From Lysinibacillus sp. (GTDB taxonomy: Bacteria; Bacillota; Bacilli; Bacillales_A; Planococcaceae), in assembly GCA_031181585.1 (NCBI GenBank), contig JAPSKP010000002.1, positions 92,133 through 156,132 of the forward strand: a stretch of 64,000 bases of DNA. The letters run 5' to 3'. Position numbers and translations under genes: made by a program. Positions 53,637 through 63,530 of the stretch are shown here, one piece after another; the stretch's first letter is position 1, and every line of letters begins with the position of its first letter. The notes under the pieces were generated by a model. It saw nothing but the letters and a program-made list of their open reading frames with translations. It was not told the origin of the DNA and did no database searches.

Positions 53637-53788
53637 TCACTATTTCCCACCTTTCCCATTTCCATTACCCATTATATTTATCGTAAAACTATCATCGTGC
53701 AGATATTGATAGATTTATTTGATTATACTATTTAGGTGTACGGCCAGGTAGGGGCAAATGCAGTTGTTCATTCACTCTAATATAAAAA

Positions 53789-53810
53789 AGCTGGAGGGTT
53801 TCCTCCAGCT
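53789..53810 (-). terminator. Distal copy of the ileS terminator hairpin
   Basis: Arms AGCTGGAGG and CCTCCAGCT with a GTTT loop, followed on the minus strand by a TTTTTTATATT tail. A nearly identical hairpin lies on the other side of the repeat at 54013-54036. Of the remaining gap, 53637-53788 shows nothing beyond the ribosome site of the M14 gene. Confidence 0.75.
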
Positions 53811-54012
53811 TCAGAGTGAAGACAAAGTCGTTTTTCGACTTTGTTTTTACGTTTTTTTAGATAGATTTTTAAAATGAAGTTTTACCCAGCCTGTCTTGAA
53901 AACGCTTGCCAGACAAGGCGCGCCGACGAGCGAAGACGCGAATAGAACCTAAGTTCATGAGCGGACGAGCGAGGCAAGCAACGATGAATGAAAGCGTTTG
54001 TCAACAGGCTGA
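53811..54012. repeat. Intergenic repeat, copy 1 (202 bp)
   Basis: Shares most of its length with 63251-63451, including identical blocks such as GTCTTGAAAACGCTTGCCAG and CAAGGCGCGCCG. Read on the minus strand it begins CAGCCTGTTGACAAACGCTT; an imperfect inverted copy (CAGCCTGTCTTGAAAACGCTT type) lies at 53887-53908 on the plus strand, so the inner 125 bp can form a large cruciform. The outer part holds the hairpin GACAAAGTCG/CGACTTTGT (53821-53843). It has no ORF. It lies between two copies of the ileS terminator hairpin, like a small non-autonomous mobile element with a target duplication. Confidence 0.8.
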
Positions 54013-54036
54013 AGCTGGAGGGTTTCCCCTCCAGCT
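54013..54036 (-). terminator. Proximal copy of the ileS terminator hairpin
   Basis: Arms AGCTGGAGGG (54013-54022) and CCCTCCAGCT (54027-54036), 8 bases after the ileS stop codon. On the minus strand it is followed by the repeat (TCAGCC) and not by T residues, so the distal copy at 53789-53810 is better suited to terminate. Confidence 0.7.
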
Positions 54037-54043
54037 TTTCTCA

Positions 54044-56803
54044 TTACATGTAATATTTCTCTACAACTTCTGCACAGCGCGTACATAATGTTGCATGAGC
54101 TTCGTTTGTTCCTACTGTTTCAGAAATTGTCCAGCAGCGCTCACATTTTTCACCATCGGCTTTTTCTACCACAAGTGCCGTTTGGCCAAGGACTAACGCA
54201 TTATCAGGTGCATTTTCCTTACTGCCTGCGATAGCGAATTGCGATACGATACATAGCTGTGCAAAATCAATGTTTGCATCATTTAGTAATTGCACCGCCT
54301 CACTTTCCGCATAAACAGAAATTTTTGCTTCTAGTGATTTTCCGATTACTTTCGCATTTCGGGCTTCTTCCAAAGCTTTCAATACTTCATCACGGATTTC
54401 GATGACCTTCGCCCACTTTTCACGTAACTGACCGAAGTTTTCCTTCTCTTCTACTTCAGGGAAGTCTGTCAATTGTACGGATGCTTCCTCAGCACCCAGG
54501 TAACCCCATAATTCTTCAGTCGTATGCGGGATAATCGGCGTCAGTACCTTTAATAGCATTTGTAATGTGTCATACATAACTGTCTGCATCGCACGGCGAT
54601 CTTTGTTATCTGTACCTTCGATATAGACTACGTCTTTTGCGATATCAAGATAGAATGAAGATAATTCAACTGCCACAAAGTTATTAATTGCATGATATAC
54701 CGTCGAGAATTCATAACGGTCATATGCAGCACGTGAGGCCTTTAATACATCCTGCATGCGCATGTACATATATTGATCCATTTCCCGTAAGTCTTCATAT
54801 GCTACGCGGTCTGTCGCTGGATTAAAGTCGGCAACATTTCCGTGTAAGAAGCGAAGTGTGTTGCGGATTTTACGATATACTTCTGATACTTGTTTCAGCA
54901 TATCCATTGAGATACGAACATCCGCTGTATAGTCAACAGATGCTACCCATAGACGAAGAATATCTGCACCATATTGATCCATTACCTTCTGTGGTACGAT
55001 GACATTTCCTAAAGACTTCGACATCTTCCGTCCTTCCCCATCAAGCACGAAACCGTGGGATAGCAAGCCTTTGTATGGTGCATAGCCATTGATCGCTACA
55101 GACGTGATCAGTGATGAGTTGAACCAGCCTCGATATTGGTCAGATCCTTCTAAATAAAGATCGGCTGGATATTTCATGCCGCGTTCTACAAGTACACCTT
55201 GGTGAGATGAACCTGAATCGAACCATACGTCCATAATGTCATTTTCTTTTGTGAAGATGCCATTCGGGCTGCCTGGATGTGTGAAGCCCTCTGGCAATAA
55301 TTCTTTAGCCTCTTTTTGGAACCAAATATTGGATCCGTGCTCACGGAATAAATTTGCTACATGTGCGATTGTTTCTGGTGTGATGATTGGTTCACCATTT
55401 TCCGCATAGAAAATTGGAATTGGTACTCCCCATGCACGCTGACGGGAGATTACCCAGTCACCACGGTCACGAATCATATTGTAAAGACGTGTTTCACCCC
55501 ATGCCGGTGTGAAAGTCGTATCTGTTACTGCTTGTAACAGCTCTTCTCGGAATGCATCAATTGAAGCAAACCACTGTGGTGTAGCACGGTAAATAACCGG
55601 CTTTTTCGTACGCCAATCATGTGGATAAGAGTGCGTGAAGAAGCCTAGTTTTTCTAACGCGTCCATTTCTTTCAGCTTTTCTGTTACTAATTTGTTTGCA
55701 TCATCATAAAAGATTCCTTCAAATCCTGGTGCTTCTTCTGTATAGCAGCCGCGATTGTCTAATGGAGATAAAATGCCAAGGTCATACTCACGACCGATAT
55801 TGTAGTCTTCTTCCCCGTGACCTGGTGCTGTATGCACACATCCTGTACCAGCTTCAGCTGTTACATGATCACCAACCATTACTAATGAATCACGGTCATA
55901 GAATGGGTGCTGCGCTACGACGCGGTCAAGCTGCTTTCCTTGTACTTCCTGGATGACTTCGTAATTTTCCCAGCCGATTGCATTAGCTACAGTTTCAAGC
56001 AGATCTTTTGCGACGATGAATTTTTTATTCTCTACCGCAACTACCACATAAGCAAATTCCGGATTCAAGGAAATTCCCAAGTTCGCTGGCAGTGTCCATG
56101 GTGTTGTCGTCCAAATAATGAATTTTGCATCTGCTGGCACTACGCCTTTTGCGTCCTTAATTGCGAAACTTACATAAATAGATGGTGATTTTACATCCTT
56201 GTATTCAATTTCTGCTTCCGCTAAAGCTGATTCAGAAGATGGCGACCAGTAGACTGGTTTAAGACCTTTATAAATATATCCTTTTTCCGCCATTTTTCCG
56301 AACACTTCAATTTGGCGTGCTTCAAATTCAGGCTTTAATGTAATATAAGGATTTTCCCAATCTCCGCGTACACCAATGCGTTTAAACTGAGAACGCTGGC
56401 TGTCAATTTGCTCGTAAGCATATTTTTCACAAAGCTCACGGAATTCCGCTACAGACATCTCCTTGCGTTTGACTCCTTTATTCGTCAGCGCTTGTTCAAT
56501 CGGTAGACCATGTGTATCCCAGCCTGGTACGTATGGTACATGATAGCCTGTCATTGATTTTTGACGCACAATCATATCTTTTAGCACTTTATTTAATGCG
56601 TGGCCAATATGAATGTCCCCATTTGCGTATGGAGGGCCATCGTGCAGCACAAAATGCGGGCGATCCTTTGTGCGCTCATTCACTAGCTTGTTGATATCCA
56701 TCTCATCCCATTTTGTTTGGATTTGCGGTTCTTTCGTTGGCAGTCCGCCACGCATTGGGAAATCTGTTTTCGGCATTAATAATGTATCTTTATACTCCAC
56801 CAT
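54044..56803 (-). CDS. ileS: Isoleucyl-tRNA synthetase
   Basis: Class I aminoacyl-tRNA synthetase of 919 residues. The HIGH motif is in [17 protein letters not shown] in [14 protein letters not shown], and the editing domain (about 200-390) has [13 protein letters not shown]. The C-terminal zinc ribbon CERCW...CTRCAEVV is intact, typical of the bacterial type. The ATG at 56803 follows AGGAGGAG. Expression should be controlled by the upstream T-box. Confidence 0.97.
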
Positions 56804-56839: not shown

Positions 56840-57085
56840 AAAAAGCCTTTCATCCCTAAAAGGGACGAAAAGCTGTTATTCCGTGGTACCACCCTAATTT
56901 GCAGAACATACACGAAGTATAATTCCGCCTCTTAGCCGCTGTAACGTCGCGTATCACGGGTCCGCCTACTCGATTCAGCGTACCAGCTCCAGAGTGATTT
57001 TCTGTAAAAAACGCATTGTTCGGGCTCTCACCACCCCCGAATCGCTAAACCGCCGTTTTCCCATACTGTCTCTATCTTAGCCGAT
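56840..57085 (-). promoter_or_regulatory. T-box leader of ileS (isoleucine)
   Basis: The minus strand contains the T-box sequence AGGGTGGTACCACGG (56881-56895) followed by the terminator TTTCGTCCCT/AGGGATGAAA (56848-56870) and TTTTTATTTT. Stem I has the distal hairpin GGTGGTGAGAGCCC. The specifier is best placed as ATC (56996-56998) in the context GAAAATCACTCTGGAG, the usual position after the distal hairpin; a second ATC occurs at 56972-56974. Uncharged tRNA-Ile would pair with it and allow read-through into ileS. Confidence 0.92.
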
Positions 57086-57164
57086 TATGCATATAAACGT
57101 CTTTTGTGTATCAGTATATGAAAAATCCTTGATATTCGTCAAGCTTTTCTAGCTAATTTGATTA

Positions 57165-60413: not shown

Positions 60414-60619
60414 CGAATCCTCCTTTTTTTAGAAAAACACATTCGCATCTGCCCGGCTCCTACAAGCACTTGAGAAATGCTCCAGAAACACAGGCTAAAG
60501 CCATTATGACCTGTGACAACGTCTTTATGACCAACATCTTGTTAGCCTGATGTGACCCCGAGCAGCAGATACGAATAGCTAGGTATATCTAGAACACGAA
60601 AAATTATCCTTTTTTACCT

Positions 60620-63097: not shown

Positions 63098-63224
63098 ACC
63101 AGTGAACGCTTTTCTATAAATTGCTTTACAAAAGTCGAGTACATCCGACATTTTATTCAAAATTAATTCCTGCTTATTAATTTAAAAAACGAGGCTGGAA
63201 CAAAATCGAATCACAAAACAAGGA

Positions 63225-63250
63225 GATGAAACCATTTTATTAGGTTCATC
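63225..63250. repeat. Left hairpin flanking repeat copy 2
   Basis: GATGAAACC and GGTTCATC arms around ATTTTATTA. Nearly identical to the hairpin at 63452-63477 on the other side of the repeat, differing at one or two positions. Confidence 0.75.
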
Positions 63251-63451
63251 CAGAGTGAAGACAAAGTCATAAATCGACTTTGTCTTCACTTTTCTTTAGA
63301 TACTTTAATAAAAAGAAAATTTACCCATCCTGTCTTGAAAACGCTTGCCAGACAAGGCGCGCCGTCGAGCGAAGACGCAAATAGAACCTAAGTTCATGCG
63401 CGGACGAGCGAGGCAAGCAACGATGGATGAGAGCGTTTGTCAACAGGCTGA
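63251..63451. repeat. Intergenic repeat, copy 2 (201 bp)
   Basis: Second copy of the element at 53811-54012, in the same orientation. The outer hairpin here is perfect, GTGAAGACAAAGTC with GACTTTGTCTTCAC (63255-63290), and the inner arms GTCTTGAAAACGCTTGCC and GAGCGTTTGTCAACAGGC can pair. The ends CAG and CTG are inverted. It is flanked by duplicates of a hairpin unrelated to the one flanking copy 1. Confidence 0.8.
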
Positions 63452-63477
63452 GATGAACCCATTTTATTAGGTTCATC
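63452..63477 (+). terminator. Right hairpin flanking repeat copy 2
   Basis: GATGAACC and GGTTCATC arms with TCTTTTTC following on the plus strand, so it looks like a plus-strand terminator, although no plus-strand gene lies upstream within 12 kb. Confidence 0.5.
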
Positions 63478-63530
63478 TTTTTCTATGATATCGGCGGACA
63501 CTTAACCGAAGCACACACAGTTCCAGCCTC

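Follow-up and report, generated by a model that had tools for sequence, protein, structure and literature searches.

A 200-bp miniature element of Lysinibacillus, likely mobilised by IS1182-family transposases, between duplicated terminator hairpins

A 200-bp repeat lies inside the terminator of the ileS gene in a Lysinibacillus genome, with the terminator hairpin present on both of its sides. Very probably, this repeat is a non-autonomous MITE, likely mobilised by DDE transposases of the IS1182 family and found within terminator hairpins, the entire local hairpin being duplicated to its left and right. We consider it a MITE of hairpin-duplicating IS1182 elements, and not a member of the IS200/IS605 or REP systems, because its ends match those of an IS1182 clade and because whole hairpins are duplicated at 30 of the 70 IS loci compared. 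Palindrome targeting by some IS1182 members has been described in print (available text of PMC5678879 and PMC4923244, citing Siguier et al.).

The ileS site and the copies of the element

The window is the whole stretch of 64,000 nucleotides that was analysed, and the coordinates given here refer to it. The isoleucyl-tRNA synthetase gene ileS occupies 54044-56803 on the minus strand, and its terminator hosts the element at 53812-54011 (plus strand, 200 bp; nhmmer 5.2e-70), which has the ends CAGAGTGAAGACAAA ... TTTGTCAACAGGCTG and thus starts with CAG and closes with CTG. The left copy of the duplicated hairpin (AAGCTGGAGGGTTTCCTCCAGCTT, 53788-53811, 24 bp) is distal for ileS, and the T run comes next to it on the minus strand; the right copy (AAGCTGGAGGGTTTCCCCTCCAGCTT, 54012-54037, 26 bp) is proximal, 2 nt longer, and followed on the minus strand by TCAGCC, the T run being absent behind it. 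A preliminary description of this DNA had placed the element between two nearly identical hairpins, only the distal one keeping its T run, and both statements are confirmed in the sequence, the latter as read on the ileS strand. It had also set the borders at 53811..54012; the location stands, and the borders need a shift of about one base, as the nucleotide preceding CAG is part of the duplication. We assign this base to the target since it varies among the 46 copies (34 T, 9 C, 2 G and 1 A) and, in the six non-T copies out of twelve that were inspected by eye (L004, L005, L006, L012, L013 and L018), is identical with the base after the right hairpin.

The left terminal inverted repeat (53812-53826, plus strand) forms mostly the 5' arm of a terminator-like hairpin at approximately 53816-53850, which is followed by a T run, and the right one (53997-54011, minus strand) is the 3' arm of a long hairpin spanning around the right 125 bp; the predicted fold of the element consists of these two main hairpins. 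On the minus strand, the whole ileS site folds far more strongly than its shuffles (z -7.63), and in the predicted structure the arms of both flanking hairpins pair with one another. No Rfam family matched at the element at the gathering threshold. Elsewhere in the window, Rfam located a T-box leader upstream of ileS (56858-57087; RF00230, 111.5 bits), as expected, and a Bacillaceae-1 RNA (60479-60545; RF01690, 37.4 bits, gathering score 35).

A second full copy (L018) is found in the window at 63251-63450 (plus strand; nhmmer 1.8e-63), between a left copy of its own local hairpin at 63224-63250 and a right copy at 63451-63477, with a T run next to the latter. Around it, at 63191-63530, GAGGCTGGAACAAAATCG and an inverted AGTTCCAGCCTC were observed; since these flanks resemble the AGAGGCTGGGACAAAA ends of another IS1182 subgroup, this copy may sit within an older repeat.

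The genome is a draft of 3.79 Mb in 164 contigs, 87.6% complete, and is close to Lysinibacillus odysseyi NBRC 100172 (ileS proteins 96% identical in the best segment, L141). It carries the element in at least 40 distinct places, a count obtained from 49 matching rows after merging the 6 copies that were split over two rows and discounting 3 internal matches in inverted orientation; this is a lower bound, as 40 of 77 first-look candidates were scored, and a further copy is present on contig C164. In L. odysseyi 26 rows matched the element, and a plasmid search with it gave no match. A length of 200 bp, the absence of a transposase gene and the dispersal over these 40 places are features of MITEs, and the element is like the bacterial MITEs of a review in being short, non-coding, multicopy and intergenic, with terminal inverted repeats; the words 'IS1182' and 'hairpin' have 0 occurrences in the available text of that review (PMC10969869). 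A variant of approximately 240 bp, with around 40 additional bases in its right part, occurs at L020, L022, L036 and L037 of the same genome. Duplicated hairpins also surround the shorter deletion forms of 86-162 bp (L032, L034, L035, L038 and L039), weakly in the case of L035.

Hairpin duplication at filled and empty sites

Flanks were analysed at 52 loci, 40 from the genome studied here and 12 from the 26 rows of L. odysseyi, and both ends of the element were present in 46 of them (36/40 and 10/12, respectively). Copies were retained at four or fewer end mismatches; two manual decisions were the inclusion of L185 (6 mismatches) and the orientation chosen for L038. The loci without both ends are at contig ends (L030 and L040), have truncated left ends (L028 and L033) or are partial matches (L061 and L191). 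The similarity between the two flanks exceeded the 99th percentile of permuted flank pairs in 42 of the 46 copies (35/36 here and 7/10 in L. odysseyi), and chance likeness of the flanks is excluded. Among these 42 copies, the direct orientation of the repeat fits better in 41, the inverted one in none, with one tie, and the flanking hairpin pair differs from site to site. The four copies without a duplication are L017, where the right hairpin is mostly lost, L183, which stands between two different hairpins, L187 and L189.

In the 40 clean cases (L025 and L035, with borders shifted by more than 1 nt, were skipped) the duplication measures 17-35 bp, with a median of 25. Its midpoint was compared with the dyad of the hairpin in 39 of the 46 copies: the offset is 0 in 30 and at most 2 bases in 38, against 10.5% for displaced controls, which supports the earlier suggestion of hairpin-directed insertion. 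Between its two outermost 8-base stretches, the duplication pairs at seven or more positions in 29 of the 40 cases (shuffle probability 0.0006) and at fewer in the other 11. Stems often pair a few bases outside the duplication, which frequently stops some pairs short of the ends of the longest possible stem, and the duplication length correlates weakly with the maximal stem-to-stem length (r = 0.34, 69 sites); for these two reasons the cut is likely to lie near the border of the stable stem and not at the last pairable base. The 8-nt windows beside the 40 duplications are rich in A upstream (0.67) and in T downstream (0.57; raw fractions), and the targets themselves have no common sequence, the best score between different 24-nt targets having a median of 8 and a maximum of 12.

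The same measurements bear on a different reading, in which the transposase makes long, loosely spaced staggered cuts at terminators, guided by sequence or bound factors such as A/T runs or a paused polymerase, and the hairpin is duplicated merely for lying between the cuts. Targets that are mostly A-rich before and T-rich after, in the manner of terminators, would agree with it, as would a duplication length so weakly tied to the stem. We nevertheless find it unlikely, given that the duplications are symmetric on the dyad at base resolution, vary in length from 17 to 35 bp and share no target sequence. Pre-existing tandem terminators that attract insertion between them, or flanking hairpins that belong to the element itself, are hardly credible at all: tandem terminators do occur in bacteria, but the hairpins vary between copies, duplications of the same kind surround 30 IS loci, and the orthologous sites lacking the element carry one homologous hairpin in 7 of 10 cases and two in none.

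Those empty sites were examined at ten orthologous positions, eight filled here and sought in L. odysseyi and two filled in L. odysseyi and empty here, and a single homologous hairpin was found at seven of them. At L001 (ileS) and L004 the two sides of the filled locus map onto one shared stretch, of 26 and 21 bases respectively, which forms one hairpin, and at the reciprocal site L055, filled in L. odysseyi, both flanks correspond to the same 27 bases of one hairpin in our genome; at L002, L009 and L016 one flank could be aligned through the lone hairpin, and at L021 the lone hairpin was matched by eye. The other site filled in L. odysseyi, L041, has one hairpin here that is too diverged for counting. 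At L008 and L018 no alignment of the empty locus reached the insertion point, near which one unrelated hairpin was seen by eye. Two hairpins without the element were present at none of the ten sites. The preliminary description had explained the ileS site as the insertion of a mobile element that duplicated the whole terminator hairpin, and had proposed other copies and empty sites as the places to look; the duplicated flanks in 42 of 46 copies and the single-hairpin empty sites, ileS included, bear this explanation out.

IS1182-family relatives and the candidate mover

The insertion sequences with ends like those of the element form a clade of the IS1182 family in Bacilli. In related genomes, IS1182-family loci (NF033551) have ends such as TCAGACTGTAGACAAA, found in 14 of the 32 loci searched, and the element ends CAGAGTGAAGACAAA and CAGCCTGTTGACAAA each share 13 of 15 positions with IS ends of the type CAGACTGTAGACAAA (by eye), the terminal inverted repeats being common to the MITE and the autonomous elements. 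The exact parent of the element was not found among the IS1182 loci compared. The relatives share with the element the CAGACTGTAGACAAA-like terminal repeats and the position of their ends beside terminator hairpins; in contrast to the gene-less 200-bp element, they measure approximately 1.5-1.75 kb and carry a DDE transposase. The sole transposase scanned, that of L068, belongs to the IS1182 family (NF033551, 468.3 bits, cut-off 270; Pfam DUF772 / DDE_Tnp_1_6). A named relative, ISEfa7, is 55% identical to the L068 transposase, and the single copy viewed (L287) has different hairpins at its two ends, by eye.

Among the 32 loci, a direct hairpin-folding repeat flanks the IS at seven places (L063/L064, which are one place, L066, L067, L068, L082, L083 and L084). 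We then compared 70 IS loci, 30 retrieved with the L068 transposase as query and 40 hand-chosen extra copies, a few of which overlap the 32. A repeat was obtained in 31 of them, and L237 (non-palindromic, fold 0.0) was taken out by hand. This leaves 30 loci, belonging to 14 genomes and to 10 family codes, in which both ends carry a repeat of 18-33 bp. These repeats are identical over the reported segment, as favoured by their retrieval as best ungapped segments (the permuted-flank threshold was applied to the element copies), and they are palindromic in 29 of 30 loci, with the midpoint at most 2 bases from the dyad in 27. The element (42/46 copies) and the IS (30/70 loci) hence show the same kind of target duplication. 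The 40 loci without a duplication are partly accounted for by contig ends, truncations, other subgroups and differing hairpins on the two sides; ten of the 70 belong to hairpin-less subgroups (L271-L275 and L280-L284), and eight (L219, L229, L230, L236, L239, L247, L251 and L255; 25 loci inspected by eye) have a hairpin at each end that differs from the other, as would be expected from recombination between IS copies. At L247 and L245 (G250, C1:3274001-3278477) the outer ends of a pair of neighbouring IS1182 copies carry one 21-base hairpin in two versions that differ at the central base, as if these 4.5 kb had transposed together as a composite and duplicated their target hairpin.

An intact IS1182 transposase was not found in the genome studied here, at its 87.6% completeness: the NF033551 search gave two fragments on contig C17, below the family cut-off, and the PF05598 profile alone detected no transposase. 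This agrees with the earlier remark that no transposase lies near the element. The IS1182 remnant L063/L064 belongs to this genome, and L063, on C17, lies between two copies of a weak hairpin. An active transposase in the same genome is not a defining feature of MITEs; as only IS1182 fragments are seen here, we infer the mover of the element from its relatives.

The preliminary description had likened the hairpin-directed insertion to that of some IS200/IS605-like and REP-linked systems. REP-associated (RAYT) and IS200/IS605 systems do involve hairpin-rich DNA, and the element both meets hairpins at its targets and consists of two main hairpins. To our knowledge, however, these systems use single-strand HUH chemistry with tyrosine transposases, and have neither inverted terminal repeats nor a target duplication. 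The element has both: its terminal inverted repeats are like those of DDE IS1182 elements, related IS encode DDE transposases, and a target duplication is present. That lead was consequently abandoned, and we consider single-strand transposition of this type highly improbable.

Target choice in the IS1182 family and its consequences

A tree was built by a quick method from 53 transposases that had been selected and labelled manually; it came with a long-branch warning concerning the distant groups. All 26 rows labelled as hairpin-duplicating fall within one group of 41 rows; the hairpin label changes 9 times, against a shuffled mean of 18.0, and the H and S labels cluster on the tree (0 of 500 shuffles as low), near-copies contributing to this result. 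The group of 41 also contains a nested subclade (L271, L274 and L277 on the tree) with short duplications and no hairpins, measuring 4 bp for the L271 group (L271-L275, by eye) and around 5 bp for L277. L271-L275 come from one genome, and their ends, TCAGACTGTTGAGAAA, are very similar to those of the hairpin-duplicating IS; this subclade is a possible natural switch in target choice. Distant members with GGCACTGAAAAA ends have 8-bp duplications in all nine copies read. In three of them (L079, L288 and L294) the duplicated bases coincide, exactly or nearly, with the loop of a terminator hairpin, which suggests insertion into the loop and not at the feet of the hairpin, and the other six have no clear hairpin. 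The AGAGGCTGGGACA-ended copies whose borders were set (L280 and L281, from one genome) are without flanking hairpins.

IS1272/TnSha1, also of the IS1182 family, inserts like the element at hairpins or inverted repeats, several times at a terminator and without a sequence consensus (available text of PMC5678879 and PMC4923244). IS1272 removes its target hairpin, replacing it without duplication (Wan 2017, PMC5678879; Furi 2016, PMC4923244), whereas the element has the hairpin on both sides and its empty sites have one. The IS1272 transposase, of 548 aa (PMC5678879), would fit the long-transposase clade (L280-L285) by its size. Duplication of a whole stem-loop was drawn by Wan 2017 (PMC5678879) as a possible alternative pathway b, with no example given in the available text. 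A table in PMC3852290, an IS/MITE pipeline paper, includes two IS1182-linked Methanosarcina MITEs with size columns of 26/4 and 25/0; comparison with the remaining rows suggests that the first figure of each pair is the inverted repeat and the second the duplication; whole-hairpin duplication is not described in its available text. Among the titles and abstract openings listed in a literature search of partial coverage, a report of whole-hairpin duplication was not found. The element constitutes a new MITE family, and our data give the first evidence that we could find for hairpin duplication by this IS1182 clade.

The likely route to these sites would start with an IS1182 transposase that moves the element and recognises the target hairpin as a structure, either a cruciform or a hairpin in single-stranded DNA. 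The two 3' ends of the element would be joined to the two 5' feet of the hairpin, one per strand, and gap filling would afterwards place a full copy of the hairpin on either side. Since the A-run and T-run would stay outside the insertion, a T run would still follow the distal hairpin in each direction. Termination would then shift by around 225 bp rather than be lost, and its maintenance after insertion is plausible from the A- and T-runs retained in the sequence.

DDE transposases generally produce duplications of fixed length, owing to cuts at a fixed spacing. Around the element, by contrast, the length is variable and each duplication tends to have the hairpin at its centre. For IS1182 members, ISfinder/TnPedia list duplications of 0-60 bp. 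On balance, we lean towards the view that one clade of IS1182 transposases sets its duplication by DNA structure and not by spacing, through strand transfer to the feet of a cruciform, the duplication being whatever hairpin is present (17-35 bp); with the replacement by IS1272 and the loop duplication, a single family would realise all three outcomes drawn as possible by Wan et al. The pathway that had been hypothetical now has dozens of natural examples, together with empty sites and candidate enzymes. For a mobile element, duplication of the hairpin offers a landing place where the terminator likely survives, and this would explain why some 40 copies are tolerated in one genome.
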